Assembly: GCA_017961265.1 (NCBI GenBank)
Contig: JAGCXN010000005.1
Span: forward strand, 1 to 37,016
Reading direction: 5' to 3'
Source of the DNA: Bacteroidales bacterium
Lineage (GTDB): Bacteria > Bacteroidota > Bacteroidia > Bacteroidales > WCHB1-69
Length of the DNA stretch: 37,016 bases
The first letter of the stretch is position 1. The number at the start of each line of letters is the position of its first letter. The notes beneath the pieces are model-generated. The model saw only the letters and a list, made by a program, of their open reading frames with translations, was not told the DNA's origin and ran no database searches. Position numbers and translations under genes: made by a program. This document shows, piece by piece, positions 26,854 to 37,016 of this stretch.

Positions 26854-29800
26854 ATGAAAAAAGCAATAACCCTCCTCCTCATCACCTTACTGTGCGCAAA
26901 CAACCTACACGCCCAGCATAGTCCGTCCGACATCAAGCAGATTCTCACCACGAATTTTGAGAATCTGTACAAACAATATGACAACGAAGAGGCCTTCGAC
27001 TCCATCCTGCTGAAGGTCAACGGCTATATAGGGGATGTGGAGAAGCGGTATCAGAGCAGTCCGACGGCGGCTGACCTGTGCGAGGCGGCAGTGTGGCACA
27101 GCTACAAGGGCAGTCTCCTCAGCAAGATACTGGAGCAGCAGCGTTGGACGATCTCTTCCCGAACCCAAACGGAATCAGCTAATGGCAGCGACTGGAAGAC
27201 GTGGGACATCACCACCTTTGAACGCAAAATTCTGGAAGAATTTTACGCATCGCTACAAGATAAGGATGTTTTAATGGCCACTTCTTCAAAGGATTATTTC
27301 CAATTATTTGGAATGCCGGATGAAAAAGGGTGCTATCCGAACCTGTACGACCTGCTGGCCTACCGTTTCGCCGACCACCTCAGCAACTTTTCCAGCACAA
27401 GTCCCCGTCCGGCTGAAGAGTTCGACCTGAACCAGACGACCTTTTTCGACACGCAACTGCCTGATTTTGAAACAAAAGATTCTCTTTCCATTCCTTATCA
27501 TTTTTTGAAGACCATACAGGAAATCGAAAGGAAGCACCAAAACGACATAGAGGCGGACTTCCGGCTGTACAACCGGCTTATCCGTCTCAATTACGTGCGG
27601 CAGAACAGTCAGTTGGAGAACAGGGATGAACTTTACCTTGCCGCCCTCCTCATTTTGGAAGAAGACTGCGAACCCGCCTCCGACATCATTAAGCAACTGA
27701 TCTATTACTCACTGGGGAGTTTCTACCACAGTAGAGGAAACAATTCGCAGGAATATCCTGACGATTTCATCACCGCCATCAGCTGGTATGAAAAGGCCAT
27801 TGCAGCTGTTTCTGAAAACGCCTGCGCAAAGACTTGCAAAGAAAATATTCGTAAAATAAAGGAACCGAAGCGGGTCCTGCGCCTTGCTGATGACGTGATG
27901 TATCCGACGGAAAACCTGATGTGTGCCTACAGCAAAGAGTGCGACAAGCTGTATTGGGCGGTTGTCCGCTATACCGACACCTTTGACAAATATCAAAAAG
28001 CGAATGAAAAAATCACGCTGTCGATTGTCAGGCAGGACGTTATTGACATCCATAATACCAAACTTTACCGGACAGACACGACTATGGCAGTGCTGCCTGT
28101 ACTCGAAACTGGACACTACCTGCTGCTGGCAGCCTCGCACAAAATAGCATCCACTATCACCGGAGCACAACTCTGGGAATATGAAATGAGTGCGTTCTAC
28201 ATTTCGCGCCTCCGTGTCAGCTATACCGACGACAGCACCCACATCCATGTGCAGGTATTTGACCGCAAGACGGGCGAACCGCTCCCGGATGTGGAGGTGT
28301 GCCTGACGGCAGAATATTATAATGCCACCCCCTATCGTGCCAACCAACTTACCGATAACAACGGTTGGGTTAAATTTTCCAAATCTGAGATCAATAAAGT
28401 ACTGAAAAACAAATATTATTCATGTTCCATTACCTTAAAGAAGGGTAATGACATTCTCTCTTTGAATATCAACAATCTGGAACGCTACACCTATAAGGAC
28501 AGCCCGCGGGCGACGTGTGCCATCTATACCGACCGCGCCATTTACCGGCCCGGGCAGACCATTGAATGGAAAGCAATTCTTTTTAACCAGAGTAAATATG
28601 ATGAACAGCTGATTCCCAACACAAAAGTCATTGTACAACTGAAAGAGAACAACGGCACACTTATCCACCGTGACACCCTGACTACCAATGAATTTGGCTC
28701 TGTATCAGGAAGTTTCAAAGTTCCCGAAACAGGTTTCTTGGGACAATATGGTATTTTCTTGCTATACAACGGCAAACATACCAATAATAAGTGGGTGGAT
28801 GTGGAAGAGTACAAACGTCCCACGTTCGAGGTGGTGATGGACAAACCCGACGGCACCTACCGGCTCGGGTCGGAAGTGCGGATGAACGGCACGGCGACGG
28901 CCTACGCCGGCTATGCCGTACAGGGCGCAAAAGTCTCCTACCGTATTGTCCGCAACGCCAGTTTCCCGTTCCGCTACTACGGCTGGTGGTTCCGCCCGAC
29001 ACCGACCGTGCCCGCCAAGGAAATTGCCCACGGCGAGTGCACCACCAACGAGGACGGGCACTTCACTATCCGCTTCACCGCCGACGGAGACCCCGACATC
29101 GAACGGAATCTCCCGCTTTACCGCTACACCGTCACCGCCACCGTGACCGACCCGTCGGGCGAGACTCACGAGGTGAGTGCGGTCGTGCCCGTCAGCCAAC
29201 GGACGATCCTGTTTGACGTGGAGGTGCCGGAATGCCTCCGTGCCTACCGGAACGAGAACCGCATCGCCGTCCGCACCAACAACCTTGCGGGCGAGCCGCA
29301 AGCCGCCGAAGTCCGCTACAGCGTGGTACGGATAGCACAGCCCGAAACCTACAAAATAGCGGCACCCTTCCACGTTTCCGGGGCTGCGGAAGCATTCGGC
29401 AGCCGCTTCCCTCAATACGATTTCAAAGGGCAGACCGAGCCCTACCAGTGGAAGGAAACCCAAACGATGGAGTCGGGACAGTTTACCACCTCCGCGTCAT
29501 CGGAAGTGGTTTTGCAAAAGCTTTCGAGCTATCCCACAGGGGCTTACAAACTGAAACTCACCACCACAGACGCTTTCAGACAGACCGTTGAAGAGGAGTA
29601 CATCTTCTATGTCAGCCAAAAAGAGGATAACCTTCCGTTCTACACCGCGCTGTCGGTAACCTGCGACAAGATGACCGCGGCCGTCGGCGAAACCATCACC
29701 TTCGTTATCGGCAGCCGTTTAAAAAAGCAGCCCGTTTACATCCGCATCTTCAATAACGACAAGCTGTTAGAAGAAAAATGGACACATCTCGACAACAGCA

Positions 29801-32800
29801 CCTATCTCTTCAGACATACCGTCAAGAGCGGCGAGGAAGGGAAATTCTGCTGTTATGCCTACACTGCCTGGGAAAACGAGATTTACAGCGAGGAAGCAAC
29901 CATACAGGTGCCTGAGGTACAACGAAAAATCCGCTTTGACTTCGTCACTTTCCGTGACAAACTGCAGCCGGGCGGACAAGAAACCGTCAGGATACGGATG
30001 ACCGACGGCAGCGGCAAGCCCATTTCCGCCGCCGAACTGCTCTGCACCCTTTACGATGCCTCGCTCGACGCTTTCGTCCCACACAGTTTTGTCCAAACGC
30101 TCTTCAGTGACCGGAAGCCGGAATCGAAAGGGCTTTATCGGTCAGGTCCCTATGGCAGAGAATACAATCAATACCTATCTTTTCAGCCCTATTTCAGTTC
30201 CTACGATATTGACTTGCCAAGATGGATGGTCGGACTTCGTCACCTCATTAGCAATCGCTATAGAAATCATGTGGCTAAAGCCCTTGCATCCAGCGAAGGG
30301 ATTTCAAGCTCAAACGGTATGCTCACTACCGTTCGAGGAGCTCGTTCCGATGCGGACGAGATCATTTTGAATGTCGTGGAGGAAGCGGACTTTGAGTTCG
30401 CCCAAGAAGAATCTGTCGAATTAGGCAAATGGGATGGTGAGCCCACGCTTGCTAAAGGTGAAGAGCAAGCAGAAATCCCGCTCCGTTCCAACTTCAACGA
30501 AACCGCCTTCTTCTACCCGTTCCTCACGGTGAAAGACGGTGTGGCGGAGTTTGAATACACCGTGCCGGAAAGCCTCACCAAGTGGAAGATGTTCGGCGCG
30601 GCGCACACCACGCAACGGCAGTACGGCACCTTCGAGAAGTTCGTCGTCACGCAGAAAACGCTGATGACCAGTCCCAATCTGCCCCGCTTCATCTACGAGG
30701 GCGACACGTGGGACTTCGCCGCCAAGGCGGTCAACATGGGCGATGTGGCCCTCAACGGCACGGCCGAGCTGCGCCTTCTCAACGCCGAGGACGGCGCCGT
30801 CCTCTTCTCGCAGGTGCAGGATGTCGCCATCGCGGCCGGAGGCAGCAGCCCCGTAAAGTTCACAGTCGCCATTCCCGAAGGATTGGCCGGCATCCGGTAC
30901 ATCCTCACGGTGCGGGCGAGCGGCGGGGCGAACACCTACAGCGACGGCGAAACCGGCGAGCTGCCCGTCCTCACGCGGCGGCAGATCGTCACCGAGACGC
31001 TGCCCCTGTTCATCACGAAACAGGGAAGCCGCAGCTTCTCCCTCAAGGACCTTCCAGCGTCAAGCAACAGCGTCATCTCCTGCAAGTTGCAGTTCACGCC
31101 CGACCCTCGTTGGAACGCCGTGCTCGCCCTCCCCTACCTAATGGAGTACCCATACGATTGCAACGAACAGATTTTCAGTAAGTTGTACGCCAATACAGTG
31201 GCGGTACACATCATCAGCCAGAATCCCAACTTCTCGAAACTGTTCCAACAGGCGCAGAAAGACCAGCCCGACGCACTTCGCTCCCAATTAGTGCAAAACG
31301 CTGATTTGAAACAGATTCTGCTGGCGGAAACGCCGTGGGTAGCCGATGCGATGGACGAAGACAACGAAATCCAGAACATTGCTTGCCTGTTCGACAAACA
31401 GAACATTACCGAACAGCGGAAAGCGATGGTGCAGAAGCTGGAACGGAACCAGAATGCCGACGGCGGGTGGAACTGGTTCGCCAGCAGACCCAACGAGCGG
31501 AGCAGCCGTTACATCACCCAGCACCTGCTCATCGGCAGCGGCCGTCTGATGGACAAAGGCATCTGCAAAGCGGGCGACAACTTCTTGAAAGAAAACACGT
31601 TGAAAAAAGCCGTGGCGTTCATCGACGATGATGTCCAGCGTGACTACCAAGAGATGAAGAAAAAGTATCCAGAACAACTCAAGGAGGAAAGAATTGACGC
31701 CAACACTCTGCATTATCTCTACGCCCGCAGCTTCTTCCTGAAAATGAAGTCCGCCAACACCGAGGCCTATAAGTTCTATAAAGGTAAGCTTGTGGATTAT
31801 GCTAACGAACTGGACAACATCTACTTGAAGACGATGGCGGCACTGACGCTGTGGCAGAGCAACGCCACCGGCGACCGCGAACTGGCGCAGAAGCTGATGC
31901 TGGAAGTGAAGAGGTGGGCCATCCACTCCGAAGAGTTCGGAATGTACTGGAAGAAGGAGGGTTATGGCTGGTACTGGTACGAGGCCCCCATCGAGCGGCA
32001 GGCGCTGCTGATTGAGGCTTTCCAAACGATTTTGCAGGACGAAGAGTCGGTCAAGGAGATGAAAATCTGGCTGTTACAGCAGAAACGGACGCAGCACTGG
32101 GCCAGCACCCGCTCCACCGCAGACGCCTGCTACGCCCTGCTCCTCGACAAAGGTTCGGAGCGGGACAATGCGGACAGCCACATCACGGTGCGGTTGTGCG
32201 GTGAAACCATCGACTTCGCCGACACGCTGCAACTGCCCGTCAAGCGGGATGTTGAAAGCTGCTTGCAGCACAGCGGCGACGGCACGGTGACGCTCACCCG
32301 TGACAACGACGGGTTGTCGTACGGCGGCGTTTTCGTGCGGTACTACAAGGACATCGACGAGATTGCCGGCACGGGCACGGAGATGCCTCTATCGGTGGAG
32401 CGGCAGCTGTTCAAGGTCAGCTACGGCGAGCGTGGCGAGGTGCTGACGGAGCTTCGGGCGGACGGCGGATTGCAGGTAGGAGACCGCGTGCGGGTGAGGA
32501 TGGTGCTCCGGGCGGACCGCAACCTGGAGTTTGTCCACCTGAAGGACTTGCGTGCGGCGGCGTTCGAGCCGACGGAGACGCTGTCGGGATACCGCAGCCA
32601 GGACGGGCTGTGGTACTACCAGAGTTTCCGCGACGCGTCGGTCAACTTCTTCTTCGACTGGCTGCGGAAAGGCACGTACGTTTTCGAATACACACTGTTT
32701 GTCACGCAGAGCGGCACATACAGCAGCGGATATGCGAGCATCCAGTGCATGTACGCCCCCGAATTCAGCGCCCACAGCGCGGGCAGCGGCAAGCTGGTCA

Positions 32801-32820
32801 TCAAAGAGAGCAAGAAATAG
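26854..32820 (+). CDS. Alpha-2-macroglobulin family protein
   Basis: 1988 residues, the usual length of the large Bacteroidota type. The signal peptide ends near residue 20 (LHAQ). A helical N-terminal region (about 21-350) is followed by a carboxypeptidase-regulatory-like segment (about 466, FDRKTGEPLPDVEV), an MG2 domain (RAIYRPGQTIEWKA at about 561) and the A2M domain (ESLTKWKMFGAAH at about 1239). The thioester motif CNEQ (Cys1436-Gln1439) is intact in YPYDCNEQ. A terpenoid-cyclase-like helical domain and a receptor-like C-terminus follow. Such proteins trap proteases in the periplasm or at the surface. The partner pbpC seen in many genomes is not adjacent here. No sorting domain is present, so retention in the envelope is likely. 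Confidence 0.92.
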   Translation: MKKAITLLLITLLCANNLHAQHSPSDIKQILTTNFENLYKQYDNEEAFDSILLKVNGYIGDVEKRYQSSPTAADLCEAAVWHSYKGSLLSKILEQQRWTISSRTQTESANGSDWKTWDITTFERKILEEFYASLQDKDVLMATSSKDYFQLFGMPDEKGCYPNLYDLLAYRFADHLSNFSSTSPRPAEEFDLNQTTFFDTQLPDFETKDSLSIPYHFLKTIQEIERKHQNDIEADFRLYNRLIRLNYVRQNSQLENRDELYLAALLILEEDCEPASDIIKQLIYYSLGSFYHSRGNNSQEYPDDFITAISWYEKAIAAVSENACAKTCKENIRKIKEPKRVLRLADDVMYPTENLMCAYSKECDKLYWAVVRYTDTFDKYQKANEKITLSIVRQDVIDIHNTKLYRTDTTMAVLPVLETGHYLLLAASHKIASTITGAQLWEYEMSAFYISRLRVSYTDDSTHIHVQVFDRKTGEPLPDVEVCLTAEYYNATPYRANQLTDNNGWVKFSKSEINKVLKNKYYSCSITLKKGNDILSLNINNLERYTYKDSPRATCAIYTDRAIYRPGQTIEWKAILFNQSKYDEQLIPNTKVIVQLKENNGTLIHRDTLTTNEFGSVSGSFKVPETGFLGQYGIFLLYNGKHTNNKWVDVEEYKRPTFEVVMDKPDGTYRLGSEVRMNGTATAYAGYAVQGAKVSYRIVRNASFPFRYYGWWFRPTPTVPAKEIAHGECTTNEDGHFTIRFTADGDPDIERNLPLYRYTVTATVTDPSGETHEVSAVVPVSQRTILFDVEVPECLRAYRNENRIAVRTNNLAGEPQAAEVRYSVVRIAQPETYKIAAPFHVSGAAEAFGSRFPQYDFKGQTEPYQWKETQTMESGQFTTSASSEVVLQKLSSYPTGAYKLKLTTTDAFRQTVEEEYIFYVSQKEDNLPFYTALSVTCDKMTAAVGETITFVIGSRLKKQPVYIRIFNNDKLLEEKWTHLDNSTYLFRHTVKSGEEGKFCCYAYTAWENEIYSEEATIQVPEVQRKIRFDFVTFRDKLQPGGQETVRIRMTDGSGKPISAAELLCTLYDASLDAFVPHSFVQTLFSDRKPESKGLYRSGPYGREYNQYLSFQPYFSSYDIDLPRWMVGLRHLISNRYRNHVAKALASSEGISSSNGMLTTVRGARSDADEIILNVVEEADFEFAQEESVELGKWDGEPTLAKGEEQAEIPLRSNFNETAFFYPFLTVKDGVAEFEYTVPESLTKWKMFGAAHTTQRQYGTFEKFVVTQKTLMTSPNLPRFIYEGDTWDFAAKAVNMGDVALNGTAELRLLNAEDGAVLFSQVQDVAIAAGGSSPVKFTVAIPEGLAGIRYILTVRASGGANTYSDGETGELPVLTRRQIVTETLPLFITKQGSRSFSLKDLPASSNSVISCKLQFTPDPRWNAVLALPYLMEYPYDCNEQIFSKLYANTVAVHIISQNPNFSKLFQQAQKDQPDALRSQLVQNADLKQILLAETPWVADAMDEDNEIQNIACLFDKQNITEQRKAMVQKLERNQNADGGWNWFASRPNERSSRYITQHLLIGSGRLMDKGICKAGDNFLKENTLKKAVAFIDDDVQRDYQEMKKKYPEQLKEERIDANTLHYLYARSFFLKMKSANTEAYKFYKGKLVDYANELDNIYLKTMAALTLWQSNATGDRELAQKLMLEVKRWAIHSEEFGMYWKKEGYGWYWYEAPIERQALLIEAFQTILQDEESVKEMKIWLLQQKRTQHWASTRSTADACYALLLDKGSERDNADSHITVRLCGETIDFADTLQLPVKRDVESCLQHSGDGTVTLTRDNDGLSYGGVFVRYYKDIDEIAGTGTEMPLSVERQLFKVSYGERGEVLTELRADGGLQVGDRVRVRMVLRADRNLEFVHLKDLRAAAFEPTETLSGYRSQDGLWYYQSFRDASVNFFFDWLRKGTYVFEYTLFVTQSGTYSSGYASIQCMYAPEFSAHSAGSGKLVIKESKK

Positions 32821-32924: not shown

Positions 32925-32998
32925 GCGGTTGTAGCTCAGTTGGTTAGAGTACCGGATTGTGGTTCCGTGGGTCGTCGGTTCGAATCCGACCTGCCGCC
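32925..32998 (+). tRNA. tRNA-His(GTG)
   Basis: Acceptor GCGGTTG/CTGCCGC (one T-T mismatch), D-arm GCTCAGTTGGTTAGAGT, anticodon GTG within GGATTGTGGTTCC, T-loop TTCGAAT. C73 can pair with G at 32924 (G-1), the tRNA-His hallmark. CCA is not encoded. Its 3' end from 32972 is duplicated at 34740. Confidence 0.95.
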
Positions 32999-33082
32999 CA
33001 AAAGATTGAAAAACAGCGATTTGCAAGCACAAATCGCTGTTTTTTTTGTTCCAATCGGGACAGAAACGGGACAAAACGACAC
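32972..33082 (+). repeat. 111-bp direct repeat, left copy (tRNA-His 3' end and terminator)
   Basis: From TCGTCGG in the tRNA to GGGACAAAACGACAC. It matches 34740-34850 at 109 of 111 positions. It includes the T-arm, the terminator hairpin, and two CGGGACA motifs 11 bp apart that resemble integrase arm sites. Confidence 0.92.
33011..33047 (+). terminator. Terminator of tRNA-His
   Basis: AAACAGCGATTT/AAATCGCTGTTT, a 12-bp stem with an 8-nt loop and an 8-T tract. It is duplicated at 34779-34815. Confidence 0.88.
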
Positions 33083-33325
33083 GAACATAGCGCGAAAATT
33101 CTATCGGTAACTATTGAAAATCAAGTCATTACGTTACAATTTGCGCACATGCAAATCGGGACAAAATAGAACAAACAAAACCGCTGCCATGGTCTTTGGC
33201 AGCGGTTTTGTTACTTAGTGTCCGCGACAACGATTGAAGCGGTTATGAGCACGGAGTGCGAAATTTGAGCGGAAAGCGTGCCTGGTCGCCCAAATAAAAA
33301 GAATTAGACTTTAAGCCATTATTAG
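33083..33325. other. Spacer after the tRNA-His repeat
   Basis: No gene is supported. It holds a third ATCGGGACAAAA motif (33155-33166) and a 13-bp hairpin AAAACCGCTGCCA/TGGCAGCGGTTTT (33177-33209), which looks like a terminator or a leftover of an integrated element. Confidence 0.55.
33177..33209. terminator. Terminator-like hairpin
   Basis: Perfect 13-bp stem with a 7-nt loop, with T-rich sequence on one side and A-rich on the other, so it could work in both directions. No gene ends right next to it on the plus strand. Confidence 0.6.
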
Positions 33326-33358
33326 TTTAACGTACCCGATATATCAGGTCATAAAAAC
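33326..33358. repeat. 33-bp direct repeat downstream of the small lipoprotein gene
   Basis: TTTAACGTACCCGATATATC followed by AGGTCATAAAAAC. It matches 33718-33750 at 29 of 33 positions. It contains a near-palindrome ACCCGATATATCAGGT. Its last base overlaps the stop codon of the lipoprotein gene. Confidence 0.75.
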
Positions 33359-33672
33359 TATTTCTCCCTACAAGTGGTGTTAAAGTGTAGGCGAAGTCCC
33401 ACTTCAGGATGGTCAACCCCGACAGAGTCGTAATAGTTGAGCGATTCGCAGTCGTCAGACTGGAGAAGCGTGTCATAAATGTATGTCTTGGGTTGGATGG
33501 ATATGTCAGATTTTAAATAGTAACCCCCTCCTGAGGCAAGCCATGCGGCCGAGTCCACCACTTCGTTGCCGATATCGTTTGCACATTGACAAAGATGCTC
33601 TTTCTTGCAACCCGTGACCATAATGGCCAGTGCGGCAGTGATGAAATACAATGGAATTAGAATTTTTTTCAT
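33358..33672 (-). CDS. Small putative lipoprotein
   Basis: 104 residues with a lipoprotein signal (MKKILIPLYFITAALAIMVTGC); the lipobox VTGC places the mature N-terminal Cys at residue 22. The mature part has five more cysteines or so (CKKEHLCQC, DDCES, TTCREK), suggesting disulfides after export. No family is recognised. It lies in the segment between the two tRNA-His repeat copies and is flanked by 33-bp direct repeats, so it may be a cargo gene of a decayed element. Confidence 0.75.
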   Translation of the reverse strand: MKKILIPLYFITAALAIMVTGCKKEHLCQCANDIGNEVVDSAAWLASGGGYYLKSDISIQPKTYIYDTLLQSDDCESLNYYDSVGVDHPEVGLRLHFNTTCREK

Positions 33673-33717
33673 GTGGTAAGGATTTATATTAACTTTTCAA
33701 TTCTCAGATCCCAGTGT

Positions 33718-33750
33718 TTTAACGTACTCAAAATATCAGGTAATAAAAAC
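33718..33750. repeat. 33-bp direct repeat upstream of the small lipoprotein gene
   Basis: Second copy of the repeat at 33326. On the minus strand it contains TATTTTG, a possible -7 element for the lipoprotein gene, 46 bp or more upstream of its start. Confidence 0.7.
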
Positions 33751-33877
33751 GGAAAGACCAAAGAATAATAGCAGCCTGTAGAATGATACGTTTTGTGAAT
33801 CATATTATTACAACGATTTTTGTCTAAAAATATTATGCAATTTCGCATTTTTTGAACTTTTCAAGGCGCAAAATTAC

Positions 33878-33909
33878 AAAAAAAGCCGTCACATAGTTGC
33901 AACGGCTTT
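33878..33909 (-). terminator. Terminator of the AlbA-like remnant
   Basis: On the minus strand AAAGCCGT ... ACGGCTTT followed by TTTTTG, located 26 bp beyond the stop at 33935. Confidence 0.8.
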
Positions 33910-33934
33910 CGGAAACTAATCAAATCAGACTCTT

Positions 33935-34852
33935 CTACTCCTCCACCACTTCCCAGTGTCCGCCTTTGTCGGAACCGATGCGGCGGATAAGGCCAGCAGA
34001 TTTAAGCTTCCGAATATTCCAATTCACACCATCACGCGTTAACCCGCATTCTTTGCATAGGGATTCTATTGTAATAGTTGGATTGGATCTCATCAACTCA
34101 ATCATTTTCTGTGTAGTTTTCTGTGTAGTTTCTTCTAACTGCTGTTCCGAAACACTCTGTGCAGCCTCCGCCTTTCTTCTTTCTTCTTCAATGAATGGCA
34201 TAACACTGAAGGCTGCATCAAAACGCACCATAAGATCACAAGGATGTGTTATGTACCCTGGTTCAGGCGATCCGTAATTGCGACAGGCAAGGTCGTCTTC
34301 TGTCATACGTTTGCTTCGCAGGGCTTCTCTGCGGAAAATATTGAAACTCTCTATATCAAGGTCTTGGTATGTGAAATTATCAACAGTGACGGCATCCCAT
34401 TTCGCTCCGGTGCGTTTGAGCAGAAAATGGGTGAGTGCAGAGCCCTGCAAAATTTGCAATGTTGCTCCCGACCGAATGAAATAGTCTCCTTTGTAATTGA
34501 GGGGGAAACCGCACGGTTCAGTTTCAATTCTGATGTACGACTTGCCTTCTTCCGTCAGCAAATCCACATCGACAATGATTCCCATTGTGTTTTTCACTTT
34601 GTTGGGAATATCCTCCAAAAGGCGCTTGGCATCGGCCACGCCGACCACCTCACCCTTGTCGTTCTTGCCAATGTAGAGCGTGCCGCCCTGCGCATTGGCA
34701 AAACTACATATCCATTTCAAATATTCGTCACGCCAAGACTCGTCGGTTCGAATCCGACCTGCCGCCCAAAAGATTGAAAAACAGCGATTTGCAAACACAA
34801 ATCGCTGTTTTTTTTGTCCCAATCGGGACAGAAACGGGACAAAACGACACAT
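33935..34852 (-). pseudogene. AlbA-domain (Schlafen-type) transcriptional regulator remnant, chimeric N-terminus
   Basis: The minus-strand frame is open, but its first 37 or so residues are translated from the tRNA-His/terminator repeat. From ESWRDEYLKWICSFANAQGG (boundary at 34740) it matches the AlbA_2 domain with GTLYIGKNDKGEVVG. The family's native start is missing. At about 34290 RMTEDDL joins directly to ACRNYGSPEPG, skipping the HATPase-type middle normally found in this family. The C-terminus keeps a helix-turn-helix (about 245-300). The ATG at 34852 overlaps the transporter's TGA (TGATG), so it may still be translated. It probably is not functional as an ATPase. Confidence 0.8.
34740..34850 (+). 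repeat. 111-bp direct repeat, right copy (tRNA-His 3' fragment)
   Basis: Lacks the 5' half of the tRNA, so it is not a functional tRNA. Two substitutions distinguish it from 32972-33082. Its right edge is 1 bp from the transporter stop codon; its left edge cuts the AlbA gene. Confidence 0.92.
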
Positions 34853-35739
34853 CACTTTTCCCTATCTTTCCGCCAAAGCTGGTAACTGTTATAGAGGTTC
34901 TGCCAGATGGAGTACATCGCAGGGAAGGTGGCAGCCAACGGCTGCAAGTACATAGACGACATCCAGATGGCGAGGGCAGTGTTGCGCTGACCCAGTCCCT
35001 GACCGCCGGATACCGTGTCGCCGTAATGCCGCCCGATAGCTCTGCCCACCGCAAATTGCACCGCACACGCCAGCATCGAGGCGACAGAAAGTCCAATAAT
35101 TTCCGGAATATGCCCGGCACCATGCAGGAAGATGAAATCGATGGTCTGCCCGAGGGTGATCATCAGCGCCAGCGACCACAAATAAAATGAAAGTCCCTTG
35201 TAACGGGCAACGAAACCGTTGACTTTCGGTGCAAACAGCTGCAACAGAATACTCAATACCAAGGGCAGAATCAGCGTCGGGGCGATTTTCGACAATATCA
35301 GCAGGAACGAATCCCAAAACGGCATCGCGACATTAATGCCTATAAACGAAAAATAGACCGGTGCGAGCAAGGCGACACCAAAGTTCCCCACAAGCGTGTA
35401 GGTGGTGATGGTGGAACGATCCGCGCCAAGCATACAGGCTATCACCACCACCGAGGCGGCCACAGGACTGATGATTCCGATGAGCACGCCCTGCGCCAAC
35501 AACTCGTTGAAAGGATGCAGCAACAGGTATCCACCCAAACTGATGAACACCTGAAACGCCAACAGCCACCAATGAAGGGGACGAACACGCAGCGTACGCA
35601 CCTCCACCGAGCTGAAGTTCAAAAAAAGGATGGAGAAAATCAGAAACGGCACCACCGGCTTCGCCATCGCCAAATAGTGGTGGAAAAGAAGTCCCACAAC
35701 AATCGCTATGGGCAAAACAAAGCTACGGAATCTCTGCAT
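34852..35739 (-). CDS. SBF-like (bile acid:sodium symporter family) transporter
   Basis: 295 residues from the ATG at 35739 (MQRFRSFVLP). An upstream start at 35772 would overlap fumC by 32 bp. It has about nine or ten hydrophobic segments, with GIISPVAASVVVIACMLGAD and QRNTALAIWMSS typical of the SBF/BASS fold. Members move bile acids, pantoate, arsenite or other anions; the substrate is unknown here. The start codon is one base after the fumC stop (TGATATG), so the two are probably translationally coupled. The 3' end abuts the right tRNA-His repeat copy. Confidence 0.88.
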   Translation of the reverse strand: MQRFRSFVLPIAIVVGLLFHHYLAMAKPVVPFLIFSILFLNFSSVEVRTLRVRPLHWWLLAFQVFISLGGYLLLHPFNELLAQGVLIGIISPVAASVVVIACMLGADRSTITTYTLVGNFGVALLAPVYFSFIGINVAMPFWDSFLLILSKIAPTLILPLVLSILLQLFAPKVNGFVARYKGLSFYLWSLALMITLGQTIDFIFLHGAGHIPEIIGLSVASMLACAVQFAVGRAIGRHYGDTVSGGQGLGQRNTALAIWMSSMYLQPLAATFPAMYSIWQNLYNSYQLWRKDREK

Positions 35740-35740
35740 A

Positions 35741-37016
35741 TCAAACCATCTTTTCGGGAACCACCCACGCATCGAACTCCTCAGCGGTCAGCAGTTTCAG
35801 TTCCAACGCCGCCTCCTTCAACGTGAGTCCGTGGGTGTGGGCGTGCTGCGCAATCTTGGCGGCATTGGCGTACCCGATGTGCAGGTTCAGGGCCGTCACC
35901 AACATCAGCGAGTTTTCGAGGTTGTGTCGGATGCGGTCAGTATTCGGCTTCACCCCGCGCACACAATGCTCCTCGAAAGAGAGGACGGCATCGTGCAGCA
36001 GCTCCATCGACTGGCACAAGCAGCTGCCGATGAGCGGCATGAAGACGTTGAGTTCCAGATGTCCCTGTAGGCCGCCGGTGGTGACGGCCACATCGTTGCC
36101 GATGACCTGACAGCACACCATTGCTAAGGCCTCGCACTGCGTAGGGTTCACCTTGCCCGGCATGATGGACGACCCCGGCTCGTTGCTCGGCAGCAACAGC
36201 TCCCCTATCCCGCAGCGCGGGCCGGAGCCGAGAAGCCGGAAGTCGTTGGCGATCTTCATCAGCGACACCGCCGTGCGCTTCAGCGCCCCCGACATCTCCA
36301 CGAGGGAATCGTGCGACGCCATCGCCTCGAACCGGTTGGGCGCGGCGGTGAGTTCCAACCCCGTGAACTGGTGGAGATAACCGATCATTTTCTCCACATA
36401 ACCGTCGGGCGTGTTCAATCCTGTACCCACCGCCGTGCCACCTATCGGCAGTTCCGAAACGTGGACGCAGGCATTTCGGATGCTTTCCATACAATGCTGT
36501 ATCTGAGAGGCATAGCCAGAAAACTCCTGTCCCAGCGTCAGCGGGGTGGCATCCATCAAGTGGGTGCGTCCAATCTTAACGATGGTAGCGAATTCTTCAG
36601 ATTTGGCCGCCAGCGTGTCGTGCAGCTGCTGCAACGCCGGCAGCAGTCCCTGCTGCGCCCACAGCAGCGTGGCGAGGCGCAGCGCCGTCGGGAATACGTC
36701 GTTGGTGGATTGCGACTTGTTGACGTCGTCGTTGGGGTGGACGAAGCGCCCGGGTCCTCGGATTTCGCCGTTCTTCAGGATTTCGGCGCGGTTGGAGACC
36801 ACCTCATTGACATTCATGTTGGTCTGTGTGCCGGAGCCGGTCTGCCACACAGGCAGCGGGAACTCGACGGGCAGCGAGCCCTCCATAATCTCGTCACAGC
36901 ACTGGATGATGAGGTCGCGCTTCTCTTCCGGAAGCACGCCGCAGTCGCAGTTGGCGCAGGCCGCGGCCTTCTTCACCACGGCGATGCTGTTAATGATTTC
37001 CGTCGGCATCAGTTGC
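35741..37016 (-). CDS. fumC: Class II fumarate hydratase (5' end outside window)
   Basis: The frame stays open to the edge of the window; an internal Met lies at 37009, but the family has about 40 residues before it, so the gene is partial. It interconverts fumarate and malate in the TCA cycle. Motifs: [44 protein letters not shown] and the fumarate-lyase signature [13 protein letters not shown]. Class II enzymes are iron-independent. CCDEIMEG and a Cys-rich start (AACANCDCG) are somewhat unusual for the family. The stop precedes the transporter start by one base. Confidence 0.95.

Follow-up and report, generated by a model that had tools for sequence, protein, structure and literature searches.

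The tRNA-His locus and its direct repeat

The window, i.e. the whole stretch of 37,016 nt that was analysed, is contig C6 of a Bacteroidales draft genome (G000; 1.89 Mb, 47 contigs, 77% complete). It contains a tRNA-His(GTG) gene at 32925..32999 on the plus strand, which was identified with ARAGORN. A gene for an A2M-type protein of 1988 aa (26854-32820) lies just 5' of it, and this position is kept in two genomes of relatives, G010 and G009. The tRNA gene is the target gene of the insertion discussed below, and its 3' 28 nt, the edge of which was set by comparison with relatives, are the att core of the first copy of a long direct repeat.

The two copies of the repeat, 32972..33082 and 34740..34850, both on the plus strand, are identical at 109 of 111 positions without gaps, and the mismatches are at repeat positions 56 and 79. 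The 111-bp direct repeat proposed in a preliminary description of this DNA was thus verified. Common to both copies are the last 28 nt of tRNA-His, which start at 32972 and 34740 in direct orientation, and 83 nt past the tRNA; the copy-to-copy spacing is 1768 bp. In copy 1, the core (32972-32999) is followed by a hairpin (33009-33044), an arm pair (33056-33073), and 9 nt with which a right-end-like spacer begins (33074-33082), all on the plus strand. Copy 2 has the same arrangement on the same strand, with the core at 34740-34767, the hairpin at 34777-34812, the arm pair at 34824-34841, and the same 9 nt of spacer at 34842-34850. A search of the window with the core-plus-hairpin pattern gave two matches, namely both copies, versus none in 100 shuffles. 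The motif CGGGACA, of which three sites had been reported, occurs at five sites in the repeat region (33056, 33067, 33157, 34824, and 34835), that is, as two pairs phased at 11 nt and one single site. Elsewhere in the window it was found six times on the plus strand and once on the minus strand, and between 32801 and 35000 the only arm pairs are those at 33056 and 34824.

Two genes, both on the minus strand, lie between the copies. The first is an ORF for a protein of 104 aa, lipoprotein-like by eye (33358..33672). This protein had no match in Pfam or PHROG and, used as a query in IMG/VR, no relative, and its relatives are present in 27 of the 104 family genomes, G000 included. The second is a truncated AlbA_2/HTH gene (33935..34739), which aligns to residues 11-164 (86% identity) and 340-484 (45%) of a 484-aa homologue in a G009 prophage region, where a related integrase is also encoded. 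The frame is open; compared with the intact homologue, its first 10 codons and an internal segment, the HATPase_c_4 part, are missing. In G009, the AlbA_2 gene of locus L163 (contig C48, 8651-18110) is followed by type I restriction-modification-like genes, named by eye, and a second small tyrosine recombinase. Directly after copy 2 lies a symporter-like host gene (34852..35772, minus strand; named by eye, no Pfam match), the stop codon of which adjoins the repeat; in G004 and G010, this gene has a different location. The tRNA-His locus retains neither an integrase nor a phage structural gene, and contig C6 has no relative of the integrase family described below, the three matches in the same genome being on contigs C20, C27, and C25. 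The small, lipoprotein-like gene and the damaged regulator that had been described between the copies, with no integrase, were confirmed, and the two genes are the left-over cargo of an element.

A counterpart of the locus was found in G010, which has the same tRNA, hairpin, arms, and lipoprotein-like gene (98% protein identity). The next gene there is prfA-like (by eye), and the repeat is present in a single copy. At the DNA level, the window and G010 are 99% identical in the lipoprotein-like gene, 95% in the non-coding att stretch, and 93% in 2.3 kb of the A2M gene upstream, and recent transfer is therefore not required. The symporter-like and the prfA-like genes are located elsewhere in relatives or in G000.

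An integrase family with a common left-end layout

An intact-looking prophage with both ends and an integrase is present in the same genome, at tRNA-Ser(CGA) on contig C20 (4343-50495; L094-L096). It measures 46,184 bp from core to core, and its integrase of 441 aa contains Phage_integrase and SAM_5 domains and matches phrog_1. A phage-type primase is also encoded; an amidase match was weak, and two large ORFs that were tail-type by reading had no PHROG match. The order at its left end is tRNA, hairpin, CGGGACAGAAACGGGACA, integrase. The prophage thus resembles the window in tRNA, hairpin, and arm pair, the last being identical over 18 nt, and differs from it in having intact ends, an integrase, and another tRNA.

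A genome scan with an alignment of three C20-type integrases yielded 35 loci, of which 32 (L191-L222) were scanned by ARAGORN, while L223-L225, with distant or short matches, were left out. A tRNA gene on the same strand, about 30-210 nt upstream of the integrase match, was found at 27 of the 32 loci, a count that includes L198, a duplicate of L197 in the same genome (99.9% over 3017 nt). L206 has the length and the tRNA of G009 C48, which was one source of the query alignment, and is probably the same locus. The tRNAs are Ser, His, Gly, Arg, Ala, Lys, Thr, or Met, with five loci at tRNA-His (L197, L198, L204, L216, and L221). L197/L198 and L216, from the Bacteroidales MAGs RGIG6723 and SRR12081296_bin.81, have the tRNA-His core of the window and, as there, a CGGGACA arm pair (CGGGACAGAATCGGGACA), but they contain the integrase and a different hairpin. 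The Porphyromonas prophage integrases in GenBank phage records, which were compared by integrase only, are related at a distance (about 30-32% identity over 82-85%).

The left ends of the family share one layout, i.e. tRNA, hairpin, two arm motifs 11 nt apart, and integrase. When the 27 tRNA-linked loci and the window were analysed together, 25 of the 28 sequences, L198 again being counted, contained within 130 nt after the tRNA a heptamer that recurs at a spacing of 11 nt and matches at 6 or more of its 7 positions. In 20 dinucleotide shuffles the mean was 1.65 and the maximum 6, and spacings of 8-10 and 12-15 nt gave 0-3. The pair in the window matches at 7 of 7 positions at 11 nt, and the window thus has the tRNA, the hairpin, and the pair of this layout. 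These results support the proposal that CGGGACA marks arm sites, as two pairs; the third motif, at 33157, drops out, as it belongs to a separate dispersed repeat. At L218, the frame of a TPR protein (named by eye) abuts core, hairpin, and integrase, with no whole tRNA, which looks like the use of a secondary site within a gene.

The integrase as a query in IMG/VR retrieved one relative, with a locus that lacked a tRNA, and the tRNA-His core had no match there. Among the papers listed for tandem or remnant att sites, for prophage integrases of Bacteroidales, for arm sites of NBU1, and for tRNA sublocation, none described the family in its title or in the first lines of its abstract.

The domain roles of lambda-type integrases predict that the arm motif is associated with the N-terminal domain and the target with the catalytic domain. 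Mantel tests were performed with arm strings chosen by eye, in a first round with 26 integrases (L198 and L222 dropped) and in a second round with 24 (L216 and L219, without catalytic domain, also dropped). For the 24 integrases, the arm motif tracked the N-terminal domain when the catalytic domain was controlled for (partial r 0.65; 0 of 5000 permutations). The tRNA target tracked the catalytic domain (0.52 with the N-terminal domain controlled for) or, to the same extent, the SAM-like domain (0.52). Shuffling of N-terminal domains was considered and rejected: in 13 pairs, identity at four-fold sites was as low in this domain (0.17-0.71) as in the catalytic domain (0.16-0.69). Conservation by constraint, not recent shuffling, appears to be the better reading of these sequences. 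The family-wide rules for arms and core are a more useful product than the remnant itself, and the relatives of the scar provide a test set for target choice by the integrases of the family.

Right ends, spacers, and the origin of copy 2

The C20 attR and its attL, at tRNA-Ser, have 29 nt in common. The corresponding stretch in G060, from which L197 comes, measures 32 nt and is common to a tRNA-His fragment on contig C83 and the attL on contig C53; the two ends, on two different contigs, presumably belong to one element. These values do not support the earlier view that a single att core, the 111-bp repeat, bounds the element. The right-end rules were derived from these two intact right ends, those of C20 and G060. 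In both, the core is preceded by an arm pair, with 95 nt between its end and the core, and is followed by a different hairpin but by no arm pair. At the G009 C48 prophage, a search for attR returned only the tRNA copy. At L231 (G034:C45:147), a 3' fragment of tRNA-His abuts a coding frame, and the whole tRNA-His is separate, on C58; this is likely another right end.

The edge of recombination, taken as the leftmost base in common, precedes TTCGA by 7 nt in C20, G060, L220, and copy 2 of the window, by 8 nt in L210 and L215, by 9 nt in G034, and, by eye, by 7 nt in L218. For L210, L215, L218, and L220, the tRNAs used in the comparison came from other members of the set of loci.

Three left ends (C20, L192, and L197) resemble one another in the spacer after the arm pair (scores 57-75, shuffle maxima 22-26). 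The spacer of the window (33074..33156, plus strand) is unlike these three (13-16, shuffle maxima 21-28) and alike to G008:C150 (123, shuffle maximum 25), where it comes after the arm pair of a right-end-like leader. This leader scored 59 versus the G060 right end (shuffle maximum 37) and 21 versus a left end (maximum 35), while its score of 34 versus the C20 right end was inside the shuffle range (maximum 36). The window spacer matched neither the C20 nor the G060 right-end spacer, and these two did not match each other (20, shuffle maximum 26). A left-end core and hairpin joined to the G008 right-end spacer, as found in copy 1, is the expected product of recombination between direct arm pairs. 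Because both copies carry sequence that adjoins a right end in another species, the body of the element was probably lost by such recombination between arm repeats, and because copy 2 ends with the first 9 nt of the right-end-like spacer, it would have been copied after the fusion.

Most likely, the 111-base repeat is a scar left by phage-like DNA of a type that integrates at tRNA genes. The initial suggestion of a tyrosine-recombinase element that has decayed at the tRNA-His 3' end is supported by the intact relatives with the same layout and target, and the existence of these relatives makes the scar readable at base resolution. For copy 2, the sequence favours a second left end over an attR: a hairpin and arms follow its core and no arm pair lies about 95 nt before it, so that left-end DNA is joined to AlbA_2. 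The explanation that we favour as a whole, with a probability of roughly two in three, comprises insertion at tRNA-His, loss of the body between arm repeats, and a second fused left end at AlbA_2; the identity of the integrase, the order of events, and the route are what we infer. A phage-type element with the integrase arm code of the 46-kb C20 prophage would have entered the tRNA-His gene at its 3' end, and the left end of the element would have rebuilt the tRNA and supplied the hairpin and the arm pair. Loss of the body, including the integrase, would have come next, most likely through recombination of the two arm pairs, which are direct repeats at the two ends; it would leave the left-end core and hairpin joined to the right-end spacer and the cargo, i.e. 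the lipoprotein-like gene and AlbA_2. A second copy of the fused left end would have been joined to AlbA_2 at codon 10-11, at the recombination edge of the family, most likely by an integrase-made duplication or by re-insertion via a pseudo-site in AlbA_2. A rearrangement to the symporter-like gene would have cut this second unit after 111 bp. The pseudo-site counts against this explanation, as only about 4 of 7 core-edge letters are shared (by eye, in the G009 homologue). Further points against it are the absence of integrase and phage structural genes from the locus, the low score of the G008 leader versus the C20 right end, the failure of the window spacer to match the C20 and G060 right-end spacers, the location of the G060 ends on two contigs, and the similar hairpin that follows tRNA-His, with no arm pair, in G008 (C155) and G005. 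Searches for a relative with intermediate states of the proposed decay found none. An empty tRNA-His site was not recovered, the sequence after tRNA-His differing among the genus genomes examined, and among the matches listed for 12 other genus genomes, no second case of both copies was seen. In G002, two pieces of tRNA-His lie at the ends of contigs, and G004 has no good match.

Both a simple tRNA duplication and a canonical attL/attR pair are disfavoured. The latter, in which copy 1 would be attL and copy 2 attR, produced by a long shared att or by insertion at an older left-end scar, would account for a direct repeat at a tRNA 3' end with cargo in between. Older scars are plausible: similar hairpins follow tRNA-His in G005, G008, and G012, and G012 has degenerate arms. 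In G008 (C155) and G005, the hairpin is without an arm pair and could be an older scar or a host terminator. However, the 111 nt in common at copy 2 and the absence of an arm pair 95 nt before its core contrast with the known right ends, and the 9 nt of post-arm spacer would require that scar and newcomer had the same fused end, so we consider this course of events unlikely. Much less probable still is that the tRNA 3' end and its surroundings were duplicated in tandem by chance, through an illegitimate event, with no integrase involved in making copy 2. The spacing of 1768 bp would fit a plain tandem unit, and the overlap at the AlbA_2/core join is, by eye, only about 2 nt. The join nevertheless lies on the family recombination edge, and with random break points in the 75-nt tRNA, a position 7-9 nt before TTCGA would be an event of about 4%. 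A tandem duplication of the tRNA-His gene also fits poorly, as copy 2 holds only its last 28 nt, cut at the family edge, and one tRNA-His was found. An assembly artefact at copy 2 might be suspected, as the draft is in 47 contigs and the gene next to copy 2 is not near tRNA-His in G010. However, two positions distinguish the copies, and the sequence to the left of copy 2 is its own and is part of the same contig, which makes an artefact highly improbable.

Beyond the preferred loss of the body and the second fused left end, the 1768-bp unit of core, hairpin, arms, lipoprotein-like gene, and cut AlbA_2 might be a candidate for a small integrase-less mobile unit, a proposal that we rate as unlikely. 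It would have been born by arm-repeat loss of a prophage body and be movable in trans by resident integrases of the same arm code, copy 2 being the start of a second tandem unit.

The locus is a new, integrase-less case of a known kind, the tRNA-anchored island. Such islands, displaced fragments, secondary sites, and tandem arrays have already been described (PMC4383910, PMC2297512). In the tDNA islands of Islander (PMC4383910) the inserted DNA is likewise flanked by a tRNA gene and a direct 3' fragment, the crossover is in the T-stem region, and tandem arrays are known. In contrast, Islander requires an integrase and at least 2 kb, whereas the window has no integrase and an interval of 1.77 kb, and the window repeat extends 83 nt past the tRNA. 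SGI1 (PMC2297512) is a precedent for tandem units and a secondary attB in an integrative element, but it is an intact, mobilizable island, demonstrated experimentally and without decay. The window differs from an intact tRNA-targeting element in that no integrase gene lies beside the att site. It also differs from a tandem array of islands, the units of which each have a fragment and an integrase of their own: a second left end is present, but no integrase. The suggested decay route, in which the body of an element is lost between its own arm repeats, leaves products that would be missed by island searches that need an integrase.

The repeats P1 and D3

The single CGGGACA at 33157 goes with a dispersed repeat, P1 (33157..33300, plus strand), which is separate from the 111-bp repeat and contains a hairpin and a Flavo-1-like stretch (33216-33287). 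Further copies in G000 are located on C20 (15068, 19892, and 40485), C35 (38681), and C41 (30154), and others in further genus genomes; 16 distinct forms were collected. P1 is intergenic, the copies inspected sit at the 3' end of a gene, and the three on C20 are within the prophage. Copies also occur in prophage regions with related integrases. In a test for Flavo-1 RNA (RF01705), the stretch 33216-33287 reached 19 bits, below the gathering cut-off of 42 bits, and the best of 10 related loci, the sole Flavo-1 match among them, reached 32.7 bits. No function of Flavo-1 is known. A transcriptome study reported Flavo-1 matches in either sense (PMC9723704).

A 33-bp repeat, D3, is present in two plus-strand copies of 88% identity, one after the lipoprotein-like gene (33326..33358) and one before it (33718..33750). 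D3 is near-palindromic by eye and may be a cassette-exchange or operator repeat. It brackets the lipoprotein-like gene here and other small secreted-protein genes in G001, and further copies were seen at L099, L100, L022, L025, and L021.
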